Assembly: GCF_022879595.1 (NCBI RefSeq)
Contig: NZ_CP084266.1
Coordinates: 992,001-1,056,000, forward strand
Reading direction: 5' to 3'
Length of the DNA: 64,000 nt
DNA from: Caballeronia sp. Lep1P3
Lineage (GTDB): Bacteria; Pseudomonadota; Gammaproteobacteria; Burkholderiales; Burkholderiaceae
Part shown: positions 48,919-62,472 of the stretch, in pieces
Numbering within the stretch: position 1 is the first letter of the stretch
How the letters are laid out: each line of letters begins with the position of its first letter
Notes under the pieces: model-generated
What the model was told of the DNA's origin: nothing
Database searches by the model: none
What the model saw: only the letters and a program-made list of their open reading frames with translations
Position numbers and translations under genes: made by a program

Positions 48919-50489
48919 ACGCGAACATCGCCGATATTGCCCAAACGTCATGGCCGGCGTTGACGACAACACTGCCGAAGGCATCGCGCGCCGACGTCGT
49001 CCTGCTCCTCGAAGGCACGTTCCCGTACGTAAGCGGCGGCGTGTCGAGCTGGGTCAATCAGATGATCCGCGCGTTCCCGGACCTGAGCTTCGCGCTGTGC
49101 TTTCTCGGCAGCCGTCCGCAAGACTATCCGAAGGCTTCGTACGCGCTGCCGGAGAACGTCGTGCATCAGGAAAATCACTTTCTCTACGACTTCGCCGCCA
49201 ACCCCGAAGTGGCGAAGCGTCGCGGCGACCGCGCGGCCTTCGCGCAGTCGGCGCAACTGCACGAAGCCATGCGCAATCCCGCGATGCGCGCCGCCGCAGG
49301 CTCCATGCTGCGCGACATGCTGAAGGACCTCGCGCCCGATGGCCGTTTGTCGGAGAGCGAATTTCTCTACTCGCGCGAGGCGTGGAACTACGTGACGGAG
49401 CAGTATCGCGAACGCTGCACGGACCCTTCGTTCGTCGATTATTTCTGGACCGTGCGCGTGATGCACAAACCGCTCTGGCTGCTCGCGCGCATTGCCGAAG
49501 GCTTGCCGGATGGGGGCGTCTATCACACGGTGTCCACCGGCTATGCGGGATTTCTCGGCGCGCTTGCGCACTACCGCACGGGCCGGCCGCTGCTCGTGTC
49601 GGAACACGGCATCTATACGAAGGAACGCAAGATCGACTTGTTTCAGAGCCAGTGGATACGCGATAACCGCAGCATCTTCGAGCGCGACGTGTCGCAGGTC
49701 GGGTATTTTCGCGATCTGTGGGTGCGTTTCTTCGAGACGCTCGGGCGCGTGTGTTACGACGCGGCGGACGACATCGTCGCGCTGTACGAAGGCAACCGCC
49801 AGCGGCAAGTCGCCGACGGCGCGCCCTTGCAGAAGACCGCGAGCGTTCCGAACGGCGTCAACCTGCCGCGACTCGCGCCGCTACGCGAGAAACGCGCGCC
49901 CGGCGTGCCGAAGACGCTGTGCCTGATCGGGCGCGTGGTGCCGATCAAGGACATCAAGACCTTCATTCGCGCGATGCTGACCGTCGTGCGCAAGGAACCG
50001 CTCGCCGAGGCGTGGATCGCGGGACCGGAGGACGAGGACGTCGAATACGCGAAGGAATGCCGCAGCCTCGTCGAAAGTCTCGGGCTGGAGGGCAAGGTCC
50101 GATTCCTCGGCTTCCAGAAGATCGAGGAACTGCTGCCCAAATGCGGCGTGCTGGTGCTCAGTTCCATTTCGGAAGCGTTGCCGCTCGTCGTGCTCGAAGG
50201 CTTCGCGGCGGGCGTGCCTTCGGTGACGACGGATGTCGGATCGTGCCGTCAGTTGATCCACGGACTGCCCGGCGAAGACGCGGCGCTCGGTGCGGCGGGC
50301 CGCGTCGTGCAGATCGCCGATCCGCGCGCGCTCGCCGACGCCGCGCTCGATCTCCTCGACGAGGACAACTGGCGCGCGGCGCAGGCGGCGGGCATCGCGC
50401 GGGTGGAACGCTTCTATACGCAGGAGCGGATGGTGGGCGCGTATCGCGTGCTGTACGAGCGGCTCATCGGCGGCGCAACGCGCACGTAA
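48915..50489 (+). CDS. pelF: PelF, cytoplasmic GT4 glycosyltransferase
   Basis: A protein of 524 residues. The N-terminal half has the PelF-specific LLLEGTFPYVSGGVSSWVNQMIRAFPDLSF; the C-terminal half is a GT4 domain with CLIGRVVPIKDIKTFI and the acidic motif SEALPLVVLEGFAAGVPSV. PelF polymerises GalNAc/GlcNAc-type units from UDP-sugars. It is translationally coupled to pelE (ATGA). A longer frame from 47910 is only the shadow of pelE. Confidence 0.95.
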   Translation: MNANIADIAQTSWPALTTTLPKASRADVVLLLEGTFPYVSGGVSSWVNQMIRAFPDLSFALCFLGSRPQDYPKASYALPENVVHQENHFLYDFAANPEVAKRRGDRAAFAQSAQLHEAMRNPAMRAAAGSMLRDMLKDLAPDGRLSESEFLYSREAWNYVTEQYRERCTDPSFVDYFWTVRVMHKPLWLLARIAEGLPDGGVYHTVSTGYAGFLGALAHYRTGRPLLVSEHGIYTKERKIDLFQSQWIRDNRSIFERDVSQVGYFRDLWVRFFETLGRVCYDAADDIVALYEGNRQRQVADGAPLQKTASVPNGVNLPRLAPLREKRAPGVPKTLCLIGRVVPIKDIKTFIRAMLTVVRKEPLAEAWIAGPEDEDVEYAKECRSLVESLGLEGKVRFLGFQKIEELLPKCGVLVLSSISEALPLVVLEGFAAGVPSVTTDVGSCRQLIHGLPGEDAALGAAGRVVQIADPRALADAALDLLDEDNWRAAQAAGIARVERFYTQERMVGAYRVLYERLIGGATRT

Positions 50490-50510
50490 ATTCAGGGACA
50501 CGCAAACGTC

Positions 50511-51881
50511 ATGGCGGGAATCGGCTTCGAACTGCGCAAGATGCTCAGGCGCGACACGCTCGTCGGGTTGATGCAGGCGTACGCCTACGCGGGACTCATC
50601 AGCGCGGGACCGTGGATTCTGTCGATCATCGGCATGCTGCTGATCGGCATCCTGAGCCTGCCGTTCGTGCTGCCGACTGGACTCATCACGCAGTTTCAGG
50701 TGTCGGTGACGTACCTCATTTCGCTGTCGCTCGTGCTGACGGGGCCGCTGCAACTCGGCTTCACGCGCTTCACCTCCGACCGGCTCTTCGAGAAACGCGC
50801 CGACATGGTGCTGCCCAACTATCACGGCGCGGCGCTCGTTTCGACCGTCGCGGCGATGCTGCTCGGCGGCGTCGCGGTGATCTTCCTGTTTCCCGATCAG
50901 ACGGCCGCATACCGGCTTCTGATGCTGGCGGGCTTCGTCGTGATGAGCAACATCTGGCTCGCCACCATCTTCCTGTCCGGCATGAAACAGTACATGTCCA
51001 TTCTCTGGGTGTTTTTCATCGGCTATACGCTGACGGCGGGCGCCGCAATCACGCTGAACGTGTTCGGCTTGACGGGTCTGCTCGGCGGCTTCGTGTTCGG
51101 GCAGACGGTGCTGCTCGCGGGGTTGCTGACGCTGATCTATCGCGATTACACGAGCGACCGCTTCATCGCCTACGACTTCTTTTCGCGGCGCTACCGCTAT
51201 CCGACCTTGATGGCGACGGGCTTTCTCTACAACCTCGGCATCTGGGCCGACAAGTTCATGTTCTGGTACGCGCCCGGCACGGGGCAGGCGGTCATCGGGC
51301 CGCTGCGAGCGTCGATCATCTACGACATTCCCGTGTTTCTCGCCTACCTCGCGATCATTCCCGGCATGGCCGTGTTTCTGATGCGCATCGAGACGGACTT
51401 CGTCGAGTACTACGACGCGTTTTATGCAGCGGTGCGCGAAGGCGCGTCGTTGCAGCATATCGAACGCATGCGCAACGCGATGGTCGAGGCGCTTCGCAAC
51501 GGGCTCTATGAGATCGTCAAGGTGCAGGCGACGGCCGCCCTGCTCCTCTTTGCGGTCAGCGCGGTGCTGCTCGGCTGGCTGCGCATTTCGACGCTCTACT
51601 CGCCGCTGCTCTACGTCGATGTGATCGCCGCGAGCCTGCAAGTGCTCTTCATGGGCGTCATCAACGTGTTCTTCTATCTGGACAAGCGGCGCGTGGTGCT
51701 TGCGCTCGTCGCGTTGTTCGTGGTGTCGAATGTCGTGCTGACGGGAATGACGCTCATGGCGAATCCCGGATGGTACGGCTTCGGCTTCGCGGGATCGCTA
51801 CTGTGCGTGGTGCTGGTGAGTCTCGTCTGGCTGGATCGGAAGCTCGATTCGCTCGAATACGAAACGTTCATGATCCAGTAA
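50511..51881 (+). CDS. pelG: PelG, Wzx-like membrane subunit of the Pel synthase
   Basis: A protein of 456 residues, the usual length, with about 12 membrane segments and the conserved start MAGIGFELRKMLRRDTLVGLMQAYAYAGLISAGPWILSI. It belongs to the MOP/Wzx-like flippase superfamily and forms the inner-membrane channel with PelD/E/F. It is the last gene of pelABCDEFG, 21 bases after pelF. Confidence 0.95.
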   Translation: MAGIGFELRKMLRRDTLVGLMQAYAYAGLISAGPWILSIIGMLLIGILSLPFVLPTGLITQFQVSVTYLISLSLVLTGPLQLGFTRFTSDRLFEKRADMVLPNYHGAALVSTVAAMLLGGVAVIFLFPDQTAAYRLLMLAGFVVMSNIWLATIFLSGMKQYMSILWVFFIGYTLTAGAAITLNVFGLTGLLGGFVFGQTVLLAGLLTLIYRDYTSDRFIAYDFFSRRYRYPTLMATGFLYNLGIWADKFMFWYAPGTGQAVIGPLRASIIYDIPVFLAYLAIIPGMAVFLMRIETDFVEYYDAFYAAVREGASLQHIERMRNAMVEALRNGLYEIVKVQATAALLLFAVSAVLLGWLRISTLYSPLLYVDVIAASLQVLFMGVINVFFYLDKRRVVLALVALFVVSNVVLTGMTLMANPGWYGFGFAGSLLCVVLVSLVWLDRKLDSLEYETFMIQ

Positions 51882-52149: not shown

Positions 52150-52647
52150 TCAACCGCGCAGATTGCGCGCGAACATTTCAAGGCAGTTCTGCACGAGCGT
52201 CGTGTCGGCTGCCTGAATATCTTTGACCATCTGGTCTTCGATCGTACGAACGACGTCCATGCCCAGCCGCAGCACGCGACGCCCTTCCTCTGTCAGCCGC
52301 AGAACGACGATGCGCCCGTGATTGGGGTCCGGCTCGCGCGTGATCCAGTTCCTCGCGGTCATTGCGCTCATCACTTCGTTGGCCGACTGCGGCGTGATAA
52401 AGGATCGTTCCGCAAGCTGCGCGTTCGACGCTTCGCCGCGCGCGTCGAGCACCGAAAGGGCGGTGAATTGGGCAAGCGTAAGCCCCACAGGTGCGAGTGC
52501 CTCTGTCATCTTTCGGCGCAAGATGCGATCGAGGCTTCCAACCAGGTAGGTCAGGCGTGGCCTCGCGTGTGCCTTGCGCGGACGTGACGCGACATGCGCG
52601 GACTTCGTCGTCGACGGGGCTTTTCTTGCTGGCGCTTTGGTCGGCAT
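52150..52647 (-). CDS. MarR-family regulator of the ferulate genes
   Basis: A protein of 165 residues. A basic N-terminal tail (PTKAPARKAPSTTKSA) precedes the MarR winged helix: LTLAQFTALSVLDARGEASNAQLAERSFITPQSANEVMSAMTARNWITREPDPNHGRIVVLRLTEEG. MarR proteins of hydroxycinnamate clusters repress until they bind feruloyl- or coumaroyl-CoA. It is the last gene of ech-vdh-fcs-marR, 74 bp after fcs. It is the only intact regulator in the island, so it is the best candidate to bind the ATCAGG-N3-CCTGAT sites. Start at 52647 preferred over 52725. Confidence 0.88.
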   Translation of the reverse strand: MPTKAPARKAPSTTKSAHVASRPRKAHARPRLTYLVGSLDRILRRKMTEALAPVGLTLAQFTALSVLDARGEASNAQLAERSFITPQSANEVMSAMTARNWITREPDPNHGRIVVLRLTEEGRRVLRLGMDVVRTIEDQMVKDIQAADTTLVQNCLEMFARNLRG

Positions 52648-52721
52648 CGCAACGCTAAAGTGAGCTTGGGAAGTTGCCCATGTTACCGTGTCGGCGCGCC
52701 CGGCCGGGTCAATGTCAACTT

Positions 52722-54620
52722 TCAATCGCGCATTCCCCTCGCGAGAATCACTTGCGAATCAGGTCCGCTCGAATCGTACAAAGCGTCGACAATCGCCGCG
52801 CGGTGTGTCAACACCGCCGATTGATTGATCGAACCTTTATCGGTGATTTCGCCGCGGTCGAGTGAAGGCGGCATCTCCAGCAAGCGCATGCGCGCGATGG
52901 TGTTTGCACTGCCCGTCGCCTGCTTGTTCAGTCGTGCAAGCAGTGTCACGAAGAACTCGCGTACCGGAGGAGCTTCGGCGATTTCGCGCGCGCTCGCATC
53001 GGGCGACAAACCTGCGAACTTTCGTATCTCGTCGAATCTTGGAAAGACCAATGCGCCTACGTCGTCACGGTTAATTCCCGTAATGACGACGTCCTGAACA
53101 TACGGCGCACCCTCGGAGATGATACGGGCGCGCATGGGCCCGACGCTGACGAACGTCCCGGAACTGAGCTTGAAATCCTCGGCGATGCGGCCATCGAACA
53201 TAAGGCCTAGCTCCGGTCGTTCTGCATCGACGAACTTGAGCGCGTCGCCGCTGCGGTAGTAGCCTTCTTCGTCGAAACTCTGCGCTCTCTGATTGCTGTT
53301 CATGCGCCAGTATCCGGCCATGATATGCGGGCCGCGGAACCGCGCTTCCAGTTTGCCGTCCACCGGAACCAGCTTCACTTCACAGCCGGGAGCCGGAACA
53401 CCGACGTATCCTGCCCGCATGACCGAGCCCGTCGTGAACAGGCACGACGGCGACGTCTCCGTCATACCGAGTCCTGCCATGATCCGTATGCGTTCGCCGC
53501 AGTAACGGGCGGTCACCTGTTCGAGCCGGTTCCACGCTGCCTGCGACAGCCCTGCGCCCGCGAAGAAATACACCTTGACGCGAGAGAAGAAGGTCTCGCG
53601 CAGTTGCGCATCGGTTTCGAGCGCAGCCGTCAATTCTTCCCATCCCTTCGGCACGTTGAAGAAAATCGTCGGCGCAATCTCGCGCAGGTTTCGTACTGTT
53701 TCTTCGAATTTTCCCGGAACGGGTCTGCCGTCATCGATATAAAGCGTTCCGCCGTTGTACAGCGCGATACCGACGTTATGACTGCCCCCGAACGTGTGAT
53801 TCCAGGGCAACCAGTCGACCAGAACCGGTGGTGCATCGGCGAAAGCGGGGAAGGTCTCGAGCAGCATCTGCTGATTGCTGCAAAGCATGCGATGTGTCGT
53901 CGGCACAGCCTTTGGCAGCTTCGTCGACCCCGATGTGAACAGGAACTTCGCGATGGTGTCTGGTCCGACCGCGCGCTGCGCATCGTCGACGCTCGTGGGC
54001 GGCGTTGCGATTAAATCGGCGAATGATGACGATGCCCGCGTGCACGACCCCGATGCGCACACGACTTCCACGTCTTCCGGCACGACGGCATCGATCGCGA
54101 CCGCGAAAGCATCACCGTCAGTCGCAAAGACGAGGCCGGGTTTCAGAAGTTCCAGCGTATGTCTCAGCTTGCCATAGTCGCTCGACACCAGCGAGTATGC
54201 CGGCGAGATCGGCGCATATGGCACGCCGGCCCACATCGCACCGAGCGCGACCTGCAGATGTTCGAGATCATTGCCCGAGAGAATTGCGACAGGCCGCTCG
54301 ACCGACAGCTTGCGATCGATCAATGCCTGCCCGATGGCCCGCGCCCGGTCCAGCATCTGCGCGTAGCTAATGCCACGCCATGCACCGTTGGCATCCCGAC
54401 GTGCGACGAGCCAGCGCTCTGGATGAACTTTCGCGCCGCTCACGAGCTTGTCCGTGAATCGATCGGGATAAGATCCGAGCGGCTCTTGTGCGCTCATATA
54501 CCAGATGTCGCCGTTCGAGCGAACGTTGATGCCGGGGCGCCCGATGCGCACCTCGCGATGCGGCAAGTCCGCCAAGTCCCGCGCGTCTTCGCGATTCTCT
54601 CGAGTTGGCTCGAAATTCAT
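52722..54620 (-). CDS. fcs: Feruloyl-CoA synthase
   Basis: A protein of 632 residues of the ANL/AMP-binding superfamily. The P-loop-like motif is FLFTSGSTKLPKAVPTTHRML; others are IRIMAGLGMTETSPSCLF and FKLSSGTFVSVGPMR. The long size and the WYMSAQEPLGSYPDRFTDKLVSGAKVHPERWLVAR N-terminal part are typical for feruloyl-CoA synthases. It activates ferulate and related hydroxycinnamates with ATP and CoA. The ATG at 54620 follows GGAGAC. Downstream of vdh, upstream of marR. Confidence 0.93.
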   Translation of the reverse strand: MNFEPTRENREDARDLADLPHREVRIGRPGINVRSNGDIWYMSAQEPLGSYPDRFTDKLVSGAKVHPERWLVARRDANGAWRGISYAQMLDRARAIGQALIDRKLSVERPVAILSGNDLEHLQVALGAMWAGVPYAPISPAYSLVSSDYGKLRHTLELLKPGLVFATDGDAFAVAIDAVVPEDVEVVCASGSCTRASSSFADLIATPPTSVDDAQRAVGPDTIAKFLFTSGSTKLPKAVPTTHRMLCSNQQMLLETFPAFADAPPVLVDWLPWNHTFGGSHNVGIALYNGGTLYIDDGRPVPGKFEETVRNLREIAPTIFFNVPKGWEELTAALETDAQLRETFFSRVKVYFFAGAGLSQAAWNRLEQVTARYCGERIRIMAGLGMTETSPSCLFTTGSVMRAGYVGVPAPGCEVKLVPVDGKLEARFRGPHIMAGYWRMNSNQRAQSFDEEGYYRSGDALKFVDAERPELGLMFDGRIAEDFKLSSGTFVSVGPMRARIISEGAPYVQDVVITGINRDDVGALVFPRFDEIRKFAGLSPDASAREIAEAPPVREFFVTLLARLNKQATGSANTIARMRLLEMPPSLDRGEITDKGSINQSAVLTHRAAIVDALYDSSGPDSQVILARGMRD

Positions 54621-54731
54621 TGTTTGTCTCCGCTGAATGTCCCGGCATCGTCCCGCGCGTTGCATGACGCGCGGATACGCTATTCGCCTTCTCGGCGCTT
54701 GGCCTTGGGTTGATTATTCCCACGCGCCGAA

Positions 54732-56183
54732 TCAGATCGGATAGTGCCGCTCGCCCGTCTGAACCGTGATCCAGCGCAGATCGGTGAATTCCGCGATCGA
54801 TGCCTTGCTGCCAAAGCGGCCATAGCCGCTTCCTTTCACGCCGCCAAAAGGCATCTGCGCTTCGTCATGCACCGTCGGGCCATTGATATGGCAGATGCCG
54901 GATTCGACGCGTTTAGCGACATTCAACGCGCGCGCGATGTCGCGGCTGAACACGGCTGCCGACAGGCCGAACTCGCTGTCGTTCGCGACGGCCACGGCTT
55001 CGTCGTCGCTGCCGACGCGCTGCACGGTGACGACCGGCCCAAACGATTCCTCGGCGTACAGCTTCATCTCGCGCGTTACGTTATCGACGATGGTCGGCTG
55101 CATGATCGCGCCGTCGATTGCGCCGCCCGCCCGGATATTTGCGCCGTGGCTGCGCGCGTCCTCGACGAGCGCCGCAATACGCTGTGCGGCTTTCCCATCG
55201 ACGAGCGCCCCGAGCTTCGCTTCGGCGGCGGTCGGCGCCATGGCGACGAGCGTGCGCGCCTTGGCTGTGAGCTGCTCGATCAACTCATCGGCGATGCTTC
55301 GATGCGCGATGATGCGCTCCGTCGACATGCAGATCTGGCCTTGATTGAAGAAGGCGCCGAAGGCGATCGCCTCGACCGCAGCATCGAGATTCGCGTCGTC
55401 GAGCACGAGCGCCGGCGCCTTGCCGCCGAGCTCCAGCAGCGCGGGTTTCAGGTGTTTCGCCGCATGCATGGCGATGATGCGCCCGACATGGGTTGATCCC
55501 GTGAAGTTCACACGGCGCACCGCGCGATGAGCGATCAGCCGCTCAACGATGGCCGCCGCGTCCTCGGGCGCATTCGTCACGACGTTGACAACGCCGTCCC
55601 CGAGACCCGCCTCGTGAAGCACCGTCCCGATCATGCGATGCACCGCCGGACACACTTCCGATGCTTTGAGCACGACGGTGTTGCCGCATGCGAGCGGCAT
55701 CGCGATGGCACGCGTACCGAGAATCACCGGCGCGTTCCACGGCGCAATGCCGAGCACCACGCCGCATGGCTGGCGCACCGCGAGTGCGAGATTGCCGGGC
55801 ATGTCGGCGGGGATCACACTGCCGTCGATTTGCGTGGTCATCGCCGCCGCTTCACGCAGCATGTTCGCGGCGAGATGGACGTTGAAGCCGTACCAGTTAG
55901 CCATCGCGCCCGTCTCGGGGATTCCTGCCGCGATGAAATCGCCGGTGCGCGCATCCATGATGTCCGCAGCCTTGAGCAAGCGCGCGCGACGCTCGGAGGG
56001 CGTCAGCGCCGACCAAGCCGGAAATGCGCGAGCGGCGGCTTCGACGGCGGCATCGGCGTCTTCGAGCGTTGCTGCCGGCGCGCGTGAGGCCACGACACCC
56101 GCGACAGGATCGAGGCGGTCAAATGTCGCCCCATTCGATGCGGCGCGACTCTGCCCGCCGATCAACATGCTCACTTCGTTCAC
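54732..56183 (-). CDS. vdh: Vanillin dehydrogenase (aldehyde dehydrogenase)
   Basis: A protein of 483 residues of the NAD(P)-dependent aldehyde dehydrogenase family with catalytic E251 (LELGGKAP), C285 (FNQGQICMSTER) and N150 (APWNAP). In this context it oxidises vanillin (or 4-hydroxybenzaldehyde) released by Ech to vanillate. It lies 22 bp after ech and 111 bp before fcs on the same strand. The vanillate demethylase genes are not in the window. Confidence 0.92.
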   Translation of the reverse strand: MNEVSMLIGGQSRAASNGATFDRLDPVAGVVASRAPAATLEDADAAVEAAARAFPAWSALTPSERRARLLKAADIMDARTGDFIAAGIPETGAMANWYGFNVHLAANMLREAAAMTTQIDGSVIPADMPGNLALAVRQPCGVVLGIAPWNAPVILGTRAIAMPLACGNTVVLKASEVCPAVHRMIGTVLHEAGLGDGVVNVVTNAPEDAAAIVERLIAHRAVRRVNFTGSTHVGRIIAMHAAKHLKPALLELGGKAPALVLDDANLDAAVEAIAFGAFFNQGQICMSTERIIAHRSIADELIEQLTAKARTLVAMAPTAAEAKLGALVDGKAAQRIAALVEDARSHGANIRAGGAIDGAIMQPTIVDNVTREMKLYAEESFGPVVTVQRVGSDDEAVAVANDSEFGLSAAVFSRDIARALNVAKRVESGICHINGPTVHDEAQMPFGGVKGSGYGRFGSKASIAEFTDLRWITVQTGERHYPI

Positions 56184-56205: not shown

Positions 56206-57045
56206 TTACTGTTCCGTGCGCTTATATGACTGCAGTCCCGGCTTGATCGACTTGTCGTCGAGGAACTGCTTCAGGCCCTCTGCACGGCCCTGCTCCGGGT
56301 CACGCAGCAGCGCCTGATCGAGCTTGGCGTACAGGTAATCCTCATTTTGGTCCCACGTCAGTTCACGTGAGCGCTTGAAGCCGTGCTTGGCTGCGCGCAG
56401 AACGACCGGATTCTTTTCCAGCAGCTTCTGAGCGAGCTTCACGACTTCCTCACGCAGTTGTGCACGCGGCACGCTCTTGTTGACGAGGCCCATCGCTGCG
56501 GCTTCCTGACCCGTGAAGGTGTCGCCCGTCATGATGTAATGCAGTGCCTGACGATGACCGACCGTATCGGCCATTGCCTTGCTCACGAGATTTCCCGGCG
56601 GAATGCCCCAGTTGATTTCAGACAGGCCAAAGACCGCTTCGTCCGCCGCCATGGCGAGATCGCACGCAACGAGGGGCGAGAAGCCGCCACCGAAACACCA
56701 TCCGTTCACCATTGCGATGGTCGGCTTCGCGTACATGCGTAAGAGCTTCCATTGCCACTGGCAGGCATCGCGGCGAATTTTCTCCTGAAGAATCTCCGGA
56801 CCTGCATCGACTTCGCGGAAATACTCTTTCAAATCCATGCCGGCGGTCCAGGCGTCGCCTGCACCGGTCAGCACCAGCACGCGCGCATCCGCATCCAATT
56901 CAAGCGTCTCGAGGACCTGAATCATCTCGCTGTTGAGCGTGGGACTCATTGCATTGCGCTTTTCCGGACGATTGAACATCACCCAGGCGATGCCCGACTC
57001 CACTTTCACGTCAACGGTTTTCCAGCGACCTTCATAGCTTGCCAT
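56206..57045 (-). CDS. ech: Feruloyl/p-hydroxycinnamoyl-CoA hydratase-lyase
   Basis: A protein of 279 residues of the crotonase superfamily. The residues defined in P. fluorescens HCHL are at the same positions: S123 (GGGFSPL), E143 (GLSEINWG) and Y239 (EDYLYA). It hydrates feruloyl-CoA and cleaves it to vanillin and acetyl-CoA. It is the first gene of the minus-strand operon; its promoter region carries the operators at 57126-57167. Confidence 0.96.
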   Translation of the reverse strand: MASYEGRWKTVDVKVESGIAWVMFNRPEKRNAMSPTLNSEMIQVLETLELDADARVLVLTGAGDAWTAGMDLKEYFREVDAGPEILQEKIRRDACQWQWKLLRMYAKPTIAMVNGWCFGGGFSPLVACDLAMAADEAVFGLSEINWGIPPGNLVSKAMADTVGHRQALHYIMTGDTFTGQEAAAMGLVNKSVPRAQLREEVVKLAQKLLEKNPVVLRAAKHGFKRSRELTWDQNEDYLYAKLDQALLRDPEQGRAEGLKQFLDDKSIKPGLQSYKRTEQ

Positions 57046-57125
57046 GCCTTTTCTCCAGCGCCTCGCGACGCAAAGTGTGAGTGTGTCCCCTGATCGCAGC
57101 GGCTGCCGAATGCACCGTTGTTTGT

Positions 57126-57167
57126 ATCAGGTAGCCTGACACCAATTCTAGTATCAAGCAGCCTGAT
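57126..57167. promoter_or_regulatory. Two operators at the ech promoter (57126-57140, 57153-57167)
   Basis: ATCAGGTAGCCTGAC and ATCAAGCAGCCTGAT, each one base off the dyad ATCAGG-N3-CCTGAT, with centres 27 bp apart. The second fills the spacer of the predicted ech promoter; the first lies just downstream of its -10. Placement is that of repressor sites, presumably for the MarR protein. Confidence 0.85.
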
Positions 57168-57174
57168 GAAACAA
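57145..57174 (-). promoter_or_regulatory. Predicted ech-vdh-fcs-marR promoter
   Basis: On the minus strand a -35 TTGTTT (57174-57169) and a -10 TAGAAT (57150-57145) are separated by 18 bases. The spacer contains an ATCAAG-N3-CCTGAT operator. The ech start codon is about 100 bp downstream. Confidence 0.55.
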
Positions 57175-57264
57175 GCGGCGCACACTCGGTAAAAACCCTC
57201 GGCTGGCATGCGATGCGATCAGTGCTGGCCCTCGCGCCGCACGTAGGGTATTCACCGAACTCAT

Positions 57265-57294
57265 TTGACTTGCCCGAATCAGGCGACCTGATAT
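57265..57294 (+). promoter_or_regulatory. Predicted promoter of the AAHS transporter gene
   Basis: A -35 TTGACT (57265-57270) and a -10 TGATAT (57289-57294) with an 18-base spacer. The operator at 57278-57292 covers the spacer and most of the -10. The transporter start codon is 105 bp downstream. Confidence 0.55.
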
Positions 57295-57365
57295 GAAATA
57301 TGCCCATCCAGCCGAACGGACGACACAGGTCCCTTTTTTTAGCGCTCGATATCAGGAAGCCTGAT
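57278..57365. promoter_or_regulatory. Two perfect operators at the transporter promoter (57278-57292, 57351-57365)
   Basis: ATCAGGCGACCTGAT and ATCAGGAAGCCTGAT are both perfect dyads. The first overlaps the predicted -10, the second lies 34 bp before the start codon. Together with the two ech-side sites they define a four-site regulon signature. No equivalent was seen before the porin or esterase genes. Confidence 0.88.
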
Positions 57366-58117
57366 TAACAGTGGAAAGTCACCGATTAAACAACCGACAT
57401 GAAAACCACCAGAACAGTATTGCCGGGAGACGGCATGAACACACGGTCCGTTGCGAGCACCGGCGCGCTCGCCACCTTGGGTCTTTGTTTTGCCATCGCG
57501 TTGCTGGAAGGACTCGACTTGCAGTCGGTCGGCGTAGCCGCGCCGCGCATGGCGCGCGAGTTCGGCCTGTCCGTCGCACAGATGGGCCTTGCGTTCAGCG
57601 CCGGAACTTTCGGCCTTCTTCCCGGCGCAATGTTTGGCGGCCGGTTGGCAGACCGGATCGGCCGCAAGCGAGTATTGATTCTTTCCGCGGCCATCTTCGG
57701 CCTGTTGTCAATCGCGACCGCGCTCGTCACGAGCTTCAACGCGCTGGTCGCCGTTCGGGTACTCACTGGAATCGGGCTCGGCGGTGCATTGCCGAACCTT
57801 ATCGCGTTGTCTTCGGAAGCAGTGTCGCCCAGGGCGCGTCATACGGCGGTGAGCGTGATGTATTGCGGCATTCCGTTCGGCGGCGTGATCGCTTCGGTCA
57901 TCGGCATTGTCAGCGCGGGCGATATCGAGTGGCGGCACATTTTCTATGTCGGCGGTGCCGGACCGCTGGTGCTCGTGCCGCTGCTCTTCGTGTTCCTGCC
58001 TGAGTCGAAAGCCTTCAGCCACGCCACGCATGGCGCGACTGGCAGGCCCGAGCCCGTCATGCAGGTGCTGTTCGGTGAGAATCGCGCCCTTTCGACGGCG
58101 CAAATCTGGATCAGTTA

Positions 58118-59029
58118 AAGGCCAGTTCAAAAAGCGCGCTCCGTTCGGCTGAAGATGTTCCAGCAGACGAGTGCGCAGGCTAGCTTTAAGAAAGCTTCGT
58201 GAATGTCAGCGCGGCGTTCGAAGCGAGTGCGGAGGCGACGGAAACCATGGAGCCAAGAATGAGTCCGTTCGACGACCCAACGGAATTTGCCGAGGCCGCT
58301 GCCGTGTTCCGTGCGACGCCTGGCGATAACCGGTTGGATGCCGCGCTCGCGAAGCCGGCGGCGATGCGAGTCAGAATCGTAACCACGGTCGGCGTAGATG
58401 ACCTTGGGCTTGCGAAGCGGTCGGCCGCGAGTGCCACGAATCGGCGGGATGGCGTCGACCAGCGGAAGCAGTTGGGTGACATCGTTGCGGTTTGCACCGG
58501 TCAGAATCGCGCTGACTGGAACGCCGTTGGCGTCTACGAGGACGTGGTGCTTGGAGCCTGGTCGCGCACGATCGGTGGGGTTTGGCCCAGTTTTTGGCCC
58601 GCCCCAACGGCTCGCACGGACGATGAATCGACAGCCGCATGTGAGAAGTCGAGCTGGCCCGACTCGCGCAGCTTGTCGAGCAGCAGCCCATGCAATCTGT
58701 CCCACACCCCGGCCTGCTGCCAGTCGTGCAACCGACGCCAGCAGGTCGCGCCAGAGCCGAAGCCTAGCCGCGTCGGTAGATGGTTCCAACGGATACCTGT
58801 CTTCAGAACGAGCAGGATGCCATTCAATGCTGCACGGTCCGAGACCGGTAGGCGCCCGGGGTAACGCTTGCGTCGCGGTCTGGGCGCTGGAAGTAGTGGT
58901 TCGATCAGTGCCCACAGTTCGTCATCGATGATAGGTGCCGGCATTCCTTGATCCGTTGTTCAGGCATCCAAGGTTAACCGTTTCGAAGAAAAGTAAACAG
59001 CCCTTCCGAGCTCTTTTTGAACTGGCCTT
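58118..59029 (-). mobile_element. IS5-family (IS427-like) insertion sequence, 912 bp
   Basis: The ends are inverted repeats beginning AAGGCCAGTTCAAAAAG, identical over 17 bases. The element is flanked by a TTA direct repeat (58115-58117 and 59030-59032), the target duplication. It carries one transposase in two overlapping frames on the minus strand. The complete ends, intact frames and clean duplication indicate a recent insertion. Confidence 0.95.
58127..58944 (-). CDS. IS5-family transposase, orfA + orfB with -1 frameshift
   Basis: orfA starts at the ATG 58944 (MPAPIIDDELWALIEPLLPA, N-terminal DUF4096-like helix-turn-helix; HAAVDSSSVRA with the first catalytic Asp) and would stop at 58534. 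orfB carries GSKHHVLVDANGVPVSAILTGANRNDVT, VIYADRGYDSD (second Asp) and GLGKFRWVVERTHSWLHGFRRL (the E of DDE). The frames differ by -1 and overlap at a run of five A (plus 58591-58595, T on plus) in CAAAAAC, a likely slippery site. Fusion gives about 272 residues. Confidence 0.9.
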
Positions 59030-59604
59030 TTACTTCTGCACGCTGATCGTCCTCTACTTTCTGCTCAACTGGCTGCCTTCCCTCATGGCCGCGCGCGGTC
59101 TTGGGCGCGCCCAAGTGGGCATCGTGCAAATCTTCTTCAACGTCGGCGGCGGTCTCGGCGCGCTCTGCATCGGCATGCTGATGGACCGTTTGCGCGGCGG
59201 CATCGTCGTGTCGGGCATGTATATCGGCATCATCGCGTCCCTCGCTGCGCTCTCCATCGCGCCAGGCTTTGCGGCACTCACCGTGTCCGCGTTTTTCGCG
59301 GGAATGTTCGTGATCGGCGGGCAGTCGGTCCTGTATGCACTTTCCGCCGCCTTCTATCCGACCTCGATGCGTGGCACCGGCGTCGGCGCTGCCGTCGCGG
59401 TAGGACGCGTGGGCTCCGTCGTCGGCCCGCTCGCCGCTGGGCAGTTGCTTGCGATGGGACGCAGCGCATCCGTCGTCATCGGCGCGAGCATTCCGGTCAC
59501 CCTGATTGCGGCAGCCGCGGCGCTGATGCTGATCCGCCGCCCGCGCGTGACCGACTAAATTCGCACAACAACACATGGATACAACACACTGGTTTGGAGA
59601 GGAA

Positions 59605-60750
59605 ATGCGAGCGAATCAACATAAGAAGACCATCGTTCTCGGCGGCGTCCTGCTCGCGTTTGCGGCAAGTGCTGCAGCGCAGTCCAGCGTCACGCTCTAC
59701 GGGATCGTCGATACGGGCATCGAATACGTGTCGCACGCAAATGCGGCGGGCGACGCGGTGTTCCGCATGCCCGCTGTTACTGGCGAGTTTCCGTCACGGT
59801 GGGGGCTGCGTGGCGTGGAAGATCTCGGCGGTGGATATAGCGCCGTGTTCACACTGGAGAACGGCTCCAATATCCGCGATGGCAGCCTCGGCCAGGGTGG
59901 ACGGTTGTTTGGCCGGCAGGCGTTCGTTGGCGTCAAGAGCCCTTACGGCACGGTGGCTTTCGGACGGCAGTACACCATGACGTATCTCGCGTTGATGAAT
60001 GCGGACGTCATCGGGCCGGACATCTACGGGATGGGATCGCTGGACGCGTACGTACCGAACGCCCGCGCTGACAATAGCGTGACGTACATGGACACGTATC
60101 GCGGCGTGACGCTCGGCGCCGGATACTCGTTCGGCCGCGATGCCGCAGGCAACAACTCGCCGGGACAAGGTTCTTGTATGGGCTCGGTGCCAGGTCACGG
60201 AACGGAGTGCCGCGACTGGTCCGTGATGCTCAAGTATGAAGCGCAGTACTTCGGCGCGGCAGCGTCATATGAAGAGCAACGCGGCGGAGCCACGGCCGCC
60301 GCCAACTTCTTCGATGGCGTCGCGCCGACTCCTCTCACCAATCCTGCCGACAAGGATGCGCGCACGCATGTGAGCGCTTATGCGCAATACGCAGGCGCGA
60401 AGATCGGATTGGGCTGGCTCGGACGTCGCGTTGTCACCGATTCTCCCGCTCTACCGAATGCGCGTTCCAATCTGTTCTTCGTGGGCGCGTCTTATTTCGT
60501 GACGCCCTCGTTCATCGTCGATGGCGAGGTCTATCGCATCGTGAATAGCGACCATGACACGCGTGCAACGATGGGCACACTGCGTACGACCTATCAGTTG
60601 TCCAAGCGCACCGCGGTCTATGCACAGGCTTCGTACCTCGCCAACAGCGCGAAAGCGCGCTTCTCGGTGAGCGGCGGCGGTGGCGGCACGACGCCCGCGG
60701 CCGGCGTCGGACAGACAGGCGCAATGATCGGCGTACGGCATTCTTTCTAA
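59605..60750 (+). CDS. OmpC/PorB-type outer-membrane porin
   Basis: A protein of 381 residues with a signal peptide (cleavage after AASAAAQ) and the Burkholderia porin opening SSVTLYGIVDTGIEYVSHAN, the loop GLRGVEDLGGGYSAVFTLENG, RQAFVGVKSPYGTVAFGRQYT, and the terminal MIGVRHSF with a final Phe for barrel assembly. The ATG at 59605 has GGAGAGG upstream; the frame begins at 59575. It lies between the transporter and the feruloyl esterase and is likely the outer-membrane entry for their substrates. Confidence 0.92.
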   Translation: MRANQHKKTIVLGGVLLAFAASAAAQSSVTLYGIVDTGIEYVSHANAAGDAVFRMPAVTGEFPSRWGLRGVEDLGGGYSAVFTLENGSNIRDGSLGQGGRLFGRQAFVGVKSPYGTVAFGRQYTMTYLALMNADVIGPDIYGMGSLDAYVPNARADNSVTYMDTYRGVTLGAGYSFGRDAAGNNSPGQGSCMGSVPGHGTECRDWSVMLKYEAQYFGAAASYEEQRGGATAAANFFDGVAPTPLTNPADKDARTHVSAYAQYAGAKIGLGWLGRRVVTDSPALPNARSNLFFVGASYFVTPSFIVDGEVYRIVNSDHDTRATMGTLRTTYQLSKRTAVYAQASYLANSAKARFSVSGGGGGTTPAAGVGQTGAMIGVRHSF

Positions 60751-60762
60751 AGGAGACGTCCC

Positions 60763-62472
60763 ATGAAAAAGACGATAATCGCAGCACTCGTATCGACCAT
60801 GATGGCGGCATGCGGCGGCGGCTCGGACGACCACGACTCGTCACTGCCGCAATTGAGTGCCGCGAGCCCCGCCGGTCTTGCCGGAACTTGCGACGCGCTG
60901 GCAGCGAAGCTCACCTTCGCCAATACGACTTATACGTCAGTCAAGGACGTACCGGCGGGCACGCTGACCATCGCGGGCAAGGCCGTGCCCGAACACTGTG
61001 TAATCGAAGGCACGATGAATCAGCGCGTCAGTTCCGTCGACGGAAAGACGTACGCGATAGGCTTTGAGATGCGATTGCCGCTCGCATGGAACGGACGCTT
61101 CTTCTATCAGGCAAACGGTGGCCTCGACGGCAGTGTCGTACCGGCGACCGGCGTCATCAGTGGCGGCGGTCCGCTCAATAATGCGCTCAGCATGGGCTTC
61201 GCGGTCATTAGCTCGGACGCTGGGCATTCATCGTCGCAGAATCCGCTTTTCGGACTCGATCCTCAGGCACGGCTCGATTACGGCTATCAGGCGGTAGCCA
61301 AGCTGACGCCAATGGCCAAGCAAGTCATCAAGACGGCTTACGGAAAAGGCCCCGATCGCAGCTACTTCGAGGGATGCTCGAACGGCGGGCGCCACGCGAT
61401 GGTCGCGGCAGCGCGCTACGCCGCCGATTACGACGGCATCATTGCTGGCGATCCAGGTGTTCATCTGCCAAAGGCGGCGATCGGCGAGATGTGGAGCGCG
61501 CAGCAATTCGCCAAGGTGGCGACGGCGACCACGGCAAGCGGACTGCCCGACATCACGACAGGGTTGACGGCGGCAGAGCGGCAAATGATTGCGTCGCACA
61601 TCATTGCTAAATGCGATGCGCTCGACGGAGCGACCGATGGCATGGTGCACGATATCAAGGCCTGCCAAGCCAATTTCGATCTCGCCCGAGACGTCCCGAC
61701 GTGCTCCACTAACGCGCGCGATGGGTCTTGTCTCACCAGCGCGCAAAAGGACGCGCTCGGCAATGTGTTTTCCGGCGCGCACAACAGCGCCGGCACCGCG
61801 CTCTATGCAAGCTTTCCGTACGATGCCGGTATCAGCGGTTCGGGTTGGGCGCAGTGGAAGCAAAACAATTCGGTCACGCTCGACCCCGGCGCCGCAGCCT
61901 TCACCTTTACAACACCGCCGCAAAGTGCATCCGTACTCAGTCAGTTATCGGCTTACGCACTCAACTTCAACATGGATACCGATGCGCCCAAGATCTTTGC
62001 GACGAGCGGTGTCTATAGCGAGTCGTCGTGGTCGTTCATGACGCCGCCTGACGAAACAAATCTGTCGGTACTTAAGAACCGGGGCGCCAAGCTAATCGTT
62101 TATCACGGTACGAGCGATCCGGTTTTCTCGTCGAACGACACGACAGATTGGTATCAGCGACTGATGACGGTGAACGGCGGCGATGCGAGCAATTTTGCGC
62201 GCCTCTACACGGTTGCGGGTATGAACCACTGCTCGGGCGGTCCTACCGCAGATCAATTCGACATGCTGACGCCGATGATTGCCTGGGTTGAACAAGGCAA
62301 GGCGCCCGATAGCGTCGTCGCGACCGCTCGCGATGCAAGCAACGCCATACCGAATCCGGAAGTGCCGGCTGACTGGGGCGCGAATCGCACGCGGCCGTTG
62401 TGCACCTATCCCAAGGTCGCGCGCTACAAGGGTGGCGATATGAACGCGGCATCGAGCTTCGCCTGTAGTTGA
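60763..62472 (+). CDS. Tannase/feruloyl esterase family lipoprotein
   Basis: A protein of 569 residues with the lipobox MMAACGGG. The tannase/feruloyl esterase signature is complete: nucleophile S206 in GCSNGG, D452 in GTSDPVF, H489 in GMNHCSGG, with neighbouring C205 and C490 forming the CS-D-HC disulfide arrangement. It should hydrolyse feruloyl or galloyl esters outside the cytoplasm and feed ferulate to the fcs-ech-vdh route. It starts 12 bases after the porin stop, in an operon with it. Confidence 0.93.
   Translation: MKKTIIAALVSTMMAACGGGSDDHDSSLPQLSAASPAGLAGTCDALAAKLTFANTTYTSVKDVPAGTLTIAGKAVPEHCVIEGTMNQRVSSVDGKTYAIGFEMRLPLAWNGRFFYQANGGLDGSVVPATGVISGGGPLNNALSMGFAVISSDAGHSSSQNPLFGLDPQARLDYGYQAVAKLTPMAKQVIKTAYGKGPDRSYFEGCSNGGRHAMVAAARYAADYDGIIAGDPGVHLPKAAIGEMWSAQQFAKVATATTASGLPDITTGLTAAERQMIASHIIAKCDALDGATDGMVHDIKACQANFDLARDVPTCSTNARDGSCLTSAQKDALGNVFSGAHNSAGTALYASFPYDAGISGSGWAQWKQNNSVTLDPGAAAFTFTTPPQSASVLSQLSAYALNFNMDTDAPKIFATSGVYSESSWSFMTPPDETNLSVLKNRGAKLIVYHGTSDPVFSSNDTTDWYQRLMTVNGGDASNFARLYTVAGMNHCSGGPTADQFDMLTPMIAWVEQGKAPDSVVATARDASNAIPNPEVPADWGANRTRPLCTYPKVARYKGGDMNAASSFACS

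Follow-up and report, generated by a model that had tools for sequence, protein, structure and literature searches.

Several MarR proteins (i.e., HcaR, CouR, and FerC) are described as repressors that answer to hydroxycinnamoyl-CoA, and the inducers reported for HcaR are hydroxycinnamoyl-CoA thioesters (accessible text of PMC4737184, PMC10458429, and PMC5487221). An earlier note on the DNA studied here started from the premise that the CoA thioester, once bound, makes MarR repressors of hydroxycinnamate genes release their DNA; according to the same sources, this is established. A positive regulator of fca-vdh-fcs, PrhP, is known genetically in Ralstonia solanacearum, and the accessible part of that report gives no recognized site for it (PMC6804342). 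In Paraburkholderia aromaticivorans, the accessible text of an RNA-seq comparison of ferulate with glucose gives log2 fold changes of 11.7 for the transporter, 11.5 for the porin, 11.36 for an MHETase-type hydrolase, 9.6 for the hydratase/lyase, and 9.1 for vanillin dehydrogenase; the ligase is also up, with its value printed as 89 (PMC9701309). Thus, both the transporter arm and the hydratase/lyase arm are ferulate induced in that species (PMC9701309). The locus-tag order given there resembles that of loci such as L061 to L066 among the relatives collected here, and we infer that the locus tag absent from the text of PMC9701309 is the MarR gene and that P. aromaticivorans has the dyads described below.

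We analyzed a 64,000-nucleotide stretch of the Caballeronia sp. Lep1P3 genome (hereafter, the window) that carries both arms. On the basis of sequence conservation, four dyads in the window are very probably operators of an HcaR-type MarR repressor (encoded at 52150 to 52725) at the ech and transporter promoters; CoA-thioester-induced release would derepress both arms. The core of the locus is very probably an HcaR-type regulon, i.e., one of a known kind, and what is new is a second promoter element and a leader hairpin. In the literature covered (mostly open-access text, without figures), neither this operator nor the second element or the hairpin in the leader is described, which is weak evidence of novelty.

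Regulator and gene content

The MarR protein is a winged-helix protein of the MarR family that exceeds the cut-offs of both PF12802 (44 bits) and PF01047 (39.8 bits), and no NCBIfam model reaches its cut-off for this protein. Its nearest relative of solved structure is HcaR of Acinetobacter baylyi ADP1 (E value, 2.2e-32; 115.5 bits; 61 of 144 residues identical), the hca operon repressor (PDB 3k0l, 4rgr, 4rgs, 4rgu, 4rgx, and 5bmz), which belongs to the same pathway and shares 20 of 34 residues over the stretch that begins with SNAQLAERS. In this ranking, which compares only proteins with a solved structure, HcaR is followed by Rv2887 (48.8 bits) and, in third place, by Rhodopseudomonas palustris CouR (39.1 bits; 6.2e-9).

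The genes ech, vdh, and fcs lie upstream of marR on one strand (Table 1), a linkage that is common but not universal in relatives. The regulator is thus the last gene of the operon that it would repress, as the earlier note had pointed out for this genome; among relatives, this is one of several arrangements. On the other arm, the transporter gene (57399 to 59558) is split by an IS5-family element, and its halves are contiguous in many relatives (e.g., L048, L049, and L055). Because of this interruption, the transporter arm of this strain is probably not fully functional. No inverted repeat of at least 12 bp that might mark the ends of the element was found in 58090 to 58970. Another locus of the genome encodes a transporter that is 59% identical.

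The ferulate genes border on a Pel-type exopolysaccharide cluster. Its PelF-type glycosyltransferase (NF038011) is followed by a frame that lacks an NCBIfam match and that we take to be possibly PelG (together, 48948 to 51881), and the cluster ends just before marR.

Table 1. Features of the ferulate locus (window coordinates)
Feature	Position	Strand	Remark
marR, HcaR-type MarR regulator	52150..52725	-	Longest frame from TTG; ATG at codon 27 may be the true start
fcs, acyl-CoA (feruloyl-CoA) synthetase	52722..54665	-	Substrate assigned from context
vdh, aldehyde (vanillin) dehydrogenase	54732..56183	-	Substrate assigned from context
ech, p-hydroxycinnamoyl-CoA hydratase/lyase	56206..57045	-	NF006588
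O1, putative auxiliary dyad downstream of ech promoter	57126..57140	.	One mismatch
Predicted ech promoter	57145..57174	-	TTGTTT 57169-57174, 18 bp, TAGAAT 57145-57150; dyad-relative position conserved
O2, dyad in ech promoter spacer	57153..57167	.	One mismatch
Second element GGGTTTTTACCGA	57186..57198	-	18 bp upstream of O2
Second element GGGTATTCACCGA	57246..57258	+	19 bp upstream of O3
Predicted transporter promoter	57270..57299	+	TTGCCC 57270-57275, 18 bp, TGAAAT 57294-57299; hexamer positions kept in relatives
O3, dyad in transporter promoter spacer	57278..57292	.	Exact
Weak hairpin and T7 tract	57318..57340	+	4-bp stem, 57318-57332; T7 tract, 57334-57340; stem ends 18 bp before O4
O4, putative auxiliary dyad between transporter promoter and start codon	57351..57365	.	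Exact
MhpT-like MFS transporter, N-terminal part	57399..58118	+	
IS5-family transposase frame within transporter gene	58127..58915	-	
Frame with transporter C-terminal part	58935..59558	+	Homology from about residue 31
Porin	59575..60750	+	
Tannase/feruloyl-esterase family protein	60763..62472	+	

Dyads in the window and in relatives

The four 15-bp dyads (ATCAGG-N3-CCTGAT) that the earlier note had listed are all present, two of them exact and two with one mismatch each. At up to one mismatch, they are the only matches in the whole 64 kb (shuffle mean, 0.08; 0 of 100 shuffles reached four), and at up to three mismatches the window shows no excess (15 matches versus 17.2 expected). The two exact copies are also the only ones in the 6.18-Mb genome. 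Eight one-mismatch copies lie elsewhere, five of them inside mechanically called ORFs of at least 250 aa, and no hydroxycinnamate gene was recognized beside the eight by Pfam (8 ORFs tested, 4 with a match, i.e., GMC oxidoreductase, transketolase, glycosyltransferase 20, and FGGY kinase). Given that the exact copies occur only here and that the neighbors named elsewhere are of this kind, the motif is of little use as a genome-wide regulon finder in this genome. Applied to the rest of the regulon, as had been proposed, it turns up little more here.

Each promoter has a second site downstream (O1 for ech and O4 for the transporter), in agreement with the earlier description. The switch lacks the symmetry that had been claimed for it: the distance between dyad centers is 27 bp at ech (O1 to O2) and 73 bp at the transporter (O3 to O4). 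The 27-bp spacing is kept in seven relatives (L048, L049, L055, L056, L060, L118, and L139) and is 29 bp in L050; the O3-to-O4 distance varies.

A sigma-70 consensus scan called neither the ech nor the transporter promoter (0 found), and both promoters are therefore predictions. O2 falls within the 18-bp spacer of the predicted ech promoter, where it had been placed before. In many relatives' ech promoters, the dyad takes up the space from a TTG- or TTTAC-like hexamer to TTAAAT (or a variant of this hexamer). For the transporter promoter, a dyad in the spacer had likewise been claimed with no hexamers printed. The pair that best fits that claim (TTGACT, 57265 to 57270; TGATAT, 57289 to 57294) does not bear it out, because the dyad would overlap the -10 hexamer by 4 bp, whereas TTGCCC/TGAAAT does enclose O3. 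It is the positions of the latter pair, not those of the former, that are kept in relatives (read by eye), which probably puts the hexamers of the transporter promoter 5 bp downstream of where the earlier wording had implied. At both predicted promoters, an inverted repeat thus lies between promoter-like hexamers in a conserved position.

We assembled a set of ech promoters from 60 stretches collected by MarR matches, 20 collected by ech or MarR matches, 2 of 8 named loci (the nonduplicates), and the window, and searched for the dyad from 450 bp upstream of ech to 30 bp into the gene. Sixty-nine ech promoters were readable (one from Glaciimonas soli [L141], the others from the family of the window). 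The dyad is present in 64 of these related, and hence not independent, promoters at up to one mismatch and in 69 of 69 at up to two. This was the scan suggested in the earlier note, and the absence of the motif from orthologous ech promoters, named there as a possible refutation, was not observed. Many other lineages show one dyad at ech, not several.

Among 398 genomes of the family, the MarR orthologue was detected in 155 (E value, 1e-25) and ech in 151 (E value, 1e-90); 149 genomes have both, 6 have MarR only, 2 have ech only, and 241 have neither. An exact dyad occurs in 140 of the 155 MarR-positive genomes versus 45 of the 243 MarR-negative ones, and two or more exact copies occur in 80 versus 4 of the same genomes; Fisher p values for this association ignore kinship, and the MarR-negative genomes include small, reduced ones. 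The reversed control pattern was found in 8 of the 398 genomes. Of the 6 genomes with MarR only, 4 lack an exact dyad.

Some of the counts speak against the operator reading. Exact dyads are not unique to the regulon (within the genus, 23 of the 50 genomes without MarR have exactly one), so that a single copy proves little, and 15 of the 155 MarR-positive genomes have none. If another regulator bound the dyads and the MarR protein acted elsewhere, the 23 MarR-negative genomes would be accounted for, as would five loci (L067, L069, L074, L075, and L076) in which no dyad at up to one mismatch lies closer than about 9 kb to the MarR orthologue. However, the genomes of these five loci have the dyad at distant ech genes (L116 to L120), the MarR gene, ech, and multiple dyads go together over the 398 genomes, and the dyad commonly lies between marR and ech where these genes are divergent. 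We consider a different binder very improbable.

Other points also count against MarR operators at these sites. A dimer that needs a single dyad does not explain why there are four sites, and the sigma-70 scan found no consensus promoter. Additionally, on an Acinetobacter indicus plasmid, an HcaR-like gene (43% identical) neighbors divergent ech and mhpT genes, and the dyads in the equivalent positions are all degenerate. In a class-wide sample (E value, 1e-20), no distant relative was found in the other 320 genomes, and plasmid records supplied one.

For eleven ech loci (L116 to L121, L124, L125, L127, L129, and L131), the stretch that was fetched contains no MarR orthologue. The dyad is present in ten of them at up to one mismatch and in one (L124) at two mismatches. 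The genomes of L116 to L121 carry the MarR gene on a different contig, and in those of L124 and L125 it is about 11 to 12 kb away; no orthologue was detected at threshold in the genome of L131. In L116 to L120, the upstream operator of ech is degenerate (no match at one mismatch; two mismatches in L118), whereas the downstream operator and a GGGTTT element persist, which makes these loci natural variants that bear on the importance of each site.

The operator reading of the core remains well supported by comparative evidence, given the dyad at 64 of the 69 ech promoters, the co-occurrence of MarR and dyads, the kinship with HcaR, and the published ferulate induction. In the absence of substrate, the repressor would occupy the spacers of the ech promoter (O2) and the transporter promoter (O3) and keep RNA polymerase off, and O1 and O4 would serve as auxiliary sites just downstream. 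Once feruloyl- or coumaroyl-CoA forms, the repressor would let go, and both arms (i.e., ech-vdh-fcs-marR on one side and transporter-porin-esterase on the other) would be made. Since marR would be made in the operon that its product represses, the circuit would include negative feedback.

Two further observations concern other relatives. The genome G012 (L054 and L140; C. glebae) has a MarR orthologue with two internal stops, no ech at an E value of 1e-90, and no exact dyad, which looks like loss of the whole regulon. In L107 (position 11446) and L143 (position 7065; Trinickia dinghuensis), an exact dyad lies about 2 kb from the MarR orthologue with no known regulon gene beside it, and these dyads may mark a possible new target.

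Second promoter element and leader hairpin

A second element, with the consensus GGGTTTnnACCGA, lies 17 to 19 or 22 to 24 bp upstream of the core dyad, i.e., in two spacing classes that differ by about half a helical turn. At up to two mismatches, it is present at 53 of the 69 ech promoters (shuffled-flank mean, 0.33) and at 35 of the 46 dyad-bearing transporter promoters (59 read; shuffled-flank mean, 0.28), a contrast that overstates the surprise because these related promoters also supplied the consensus. The stronger point is its presence at both of the two unlike promoters in 27 of 43 loci. The only exact matches to AGGGTWTTYACCGA in the genome are the two copies in the window. Over the 398 genomes, the composite pattern yielded 64 matches, 48 of which were placed at these loci by coordinates (reversed control, 5). 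Only the left half of GGGTTTnnACCGA is kept in some promoters (e.g., L098, L100, L101, and L105), and none was found in L141.

A role as a global element found no support: the four one-mismatch copies elsewhere lie inside mechanically called ORFs of more than 300 aa, one of them near the ORF start. At two mismatches, the genome has 72 matches versus 38 for the reversed control.

The recurrence at both core promoters and the exact matches confined to this locus suggest that a second regulator, which would most likely be an activator, could act through GGGTTTnnACCGA on both promoters, and PrhP provides a precedent for such a regulator (accessible part of PMC6804342). We hold this reading to be evenly balanced. 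The two spacing classes half a helical turn apart do not favor it, nor does the lack of the element at up to two mismatches in 16 of the 69 ech promoters and 11 of the 46 transporter promoters; the consensus comes from the same related sequences, and the precedent itself is reported with no recognized site. Among the 20 families (genes of at least 120 aa) shared by at least 8 loci, 6 were tested with Pfam, and none of these neighbors was a candidate binder. To link PrhP to the GGGTTTnnACCGA element is speculation.

Between O3 and O4, within the RNA predicted from the transporter promoter, the window has a weak hairpin followed by a T tract, and many relatives have a hairpin and a T-rich tract. 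We scored a hairpin whose 3' end lies 13 to 20 bp upstream of the operator, with at least 5 T in 8. By this rule, 18 of 27 proximal operators have both features as classed, and 20 of 29 have them after L057 and L072, which an adjacent element-like word had first placed among the core sites, were moved by hand. The loci with a hairpin fall in few related groups, and the independent cases are therefore far fewer than 20. At the other dyads, the count is 3 of 124 (transporter core, 1 of 32; ech core, 2 of 56; other ech, 0 of 17; others, 0 of 19), and 15 long leaders that have no proximal operator show no hairpin with a T tract. The distance between the hairpin and the proximal operator is 13 to 18 bp in 20 of 29 cases with the 13- to 20-bp search and 14 to 18 bp in most cases with an unrestricted search. 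The stems comprise 4 to 12 pairs and differ in sequence among lineages (GGAC/GTCC, GACCT/AGGTC, and GCGCGTTC/GAACGCGC). No Rfam family was found in 57040 to 57420.

This association could mean that O4 acts as a roadblock, i.e., that a polymerase that has passed O3 stalls at repressor-bound O4 with the leader hairpin and U tract behind it and terminates. The contrast between 20 of 29 and 3 of 124 (13- to 20-bp search), the lack of the feature in the long leaders, and the divergence of the stem sequences between lineages would be consistent with such a stall. So would the layouts of L057 and L058, where the upstream neighbor marR points away and only the transporter promoter would thus feed the hairpin. 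The folding results tell against it in part, since three of six leaders (L058, L059, and L120) fold significantly and three (the window, with its 4-bp stem and a z value of 0.54, L048, and L055) do not. A terminator scan of the window did not call the leader hairpin and called instead a minus-strand hairpin at 57321 to 57302, between the promoters and pointing towards ech. Additionally, the proximal operator occurs without a hairpin in L050, L073, L077, and L078, and the hairpin occurs without a T tract in L086 to L089 and L092. We regard termination at a roadblock as rather unlikely.

The hairpin could, with somewhat better but still limited plausibility, be an ordinary terminator that insulates a second promoter, itself under the control of O4. 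In the Burkholderia-like loci (L086 to L092 and L131), the transporter gene lies behind fcs on the same strand, and neither the GGGTTT element nor the upstream dyad was found; expression there consequently needs the proximal site or read-through. For that lineage, the sequences favor a second promoter. However, the hexamers around O4 are 19 to 20 bp apart in most loci (read by eye), which is long for sigma-70, and in the divergent layouts the only evident candidate for insulation is the upstream promoter of the transporter itself.

The elements could also be combined into a two-stage lock on the transporter arm with one repressor, in which O3 would block initiation and O4 would stall escaping polymerases on the hairpin and U tract and so cause termination, together with a second regulator at GGGTTTnnACCGA of both core promoters; full opening would then require both repressor release and a second signal. 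We consider this full scheme unlikely.

Implications and relation to described systems

The locus provides a testable operator and gene set for the use of hydroxycinnamates (i.e., lignin monomers) across much of the Burkholderiaceae, a family of importance in the rhizosphere and for lignin valorization. It also supplies parts for ferulate biosensors. The analysis further suggests a putative second regulator and, possibly, a terminator coupled to the repressor; the latter, if true, would be unusual wiring for a MarR protein.

Several described systems come close to the present locus, judged by the accessible parts of the respective reports. CouR of Rhodococcus jostii RHA1 is a MarR repressor that binds an inverted repeat on its promoters and is released by p-coumaroyl-CoA, but its box (cATTGA-N5-TCAATg) overlaps the -35 hexamer, one box serves two divergent promoters, and the route is beta-oxidative. 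CouR of R. palustris, FerC of Sphingobium SYK-6, and FerR of Pseudomonas fluorescens BF13 are MarR regulators of hydroxycinnamate genes that respond to CoA thioesters; R. palustris CouR is a far weaker match to the MarR protein of the window than HcaR is (6.2e-9), and FerR is listed as both an activator and a repressor. In Agrobacterium fabrum, hydroxycinnamate genes are under a self-repressing MarR protein (HcaR) and a second regulator (Atu1419), the latter being a VanR-group GntR repressor with ATGTATACAT sites, different from GGGTTTnnACCGA, on other promoters of the cluster. Finally, the hca genes of Cupriavidus basilensis B-8 (hcaR, hcaK, and hcaX) resemble the present locus in their annotated MarR regulator, 3-hydroxyphenylpropionate-type transporter, and porin, and differ from it in that they come from a genome annotation in which the regulator is named an activator.
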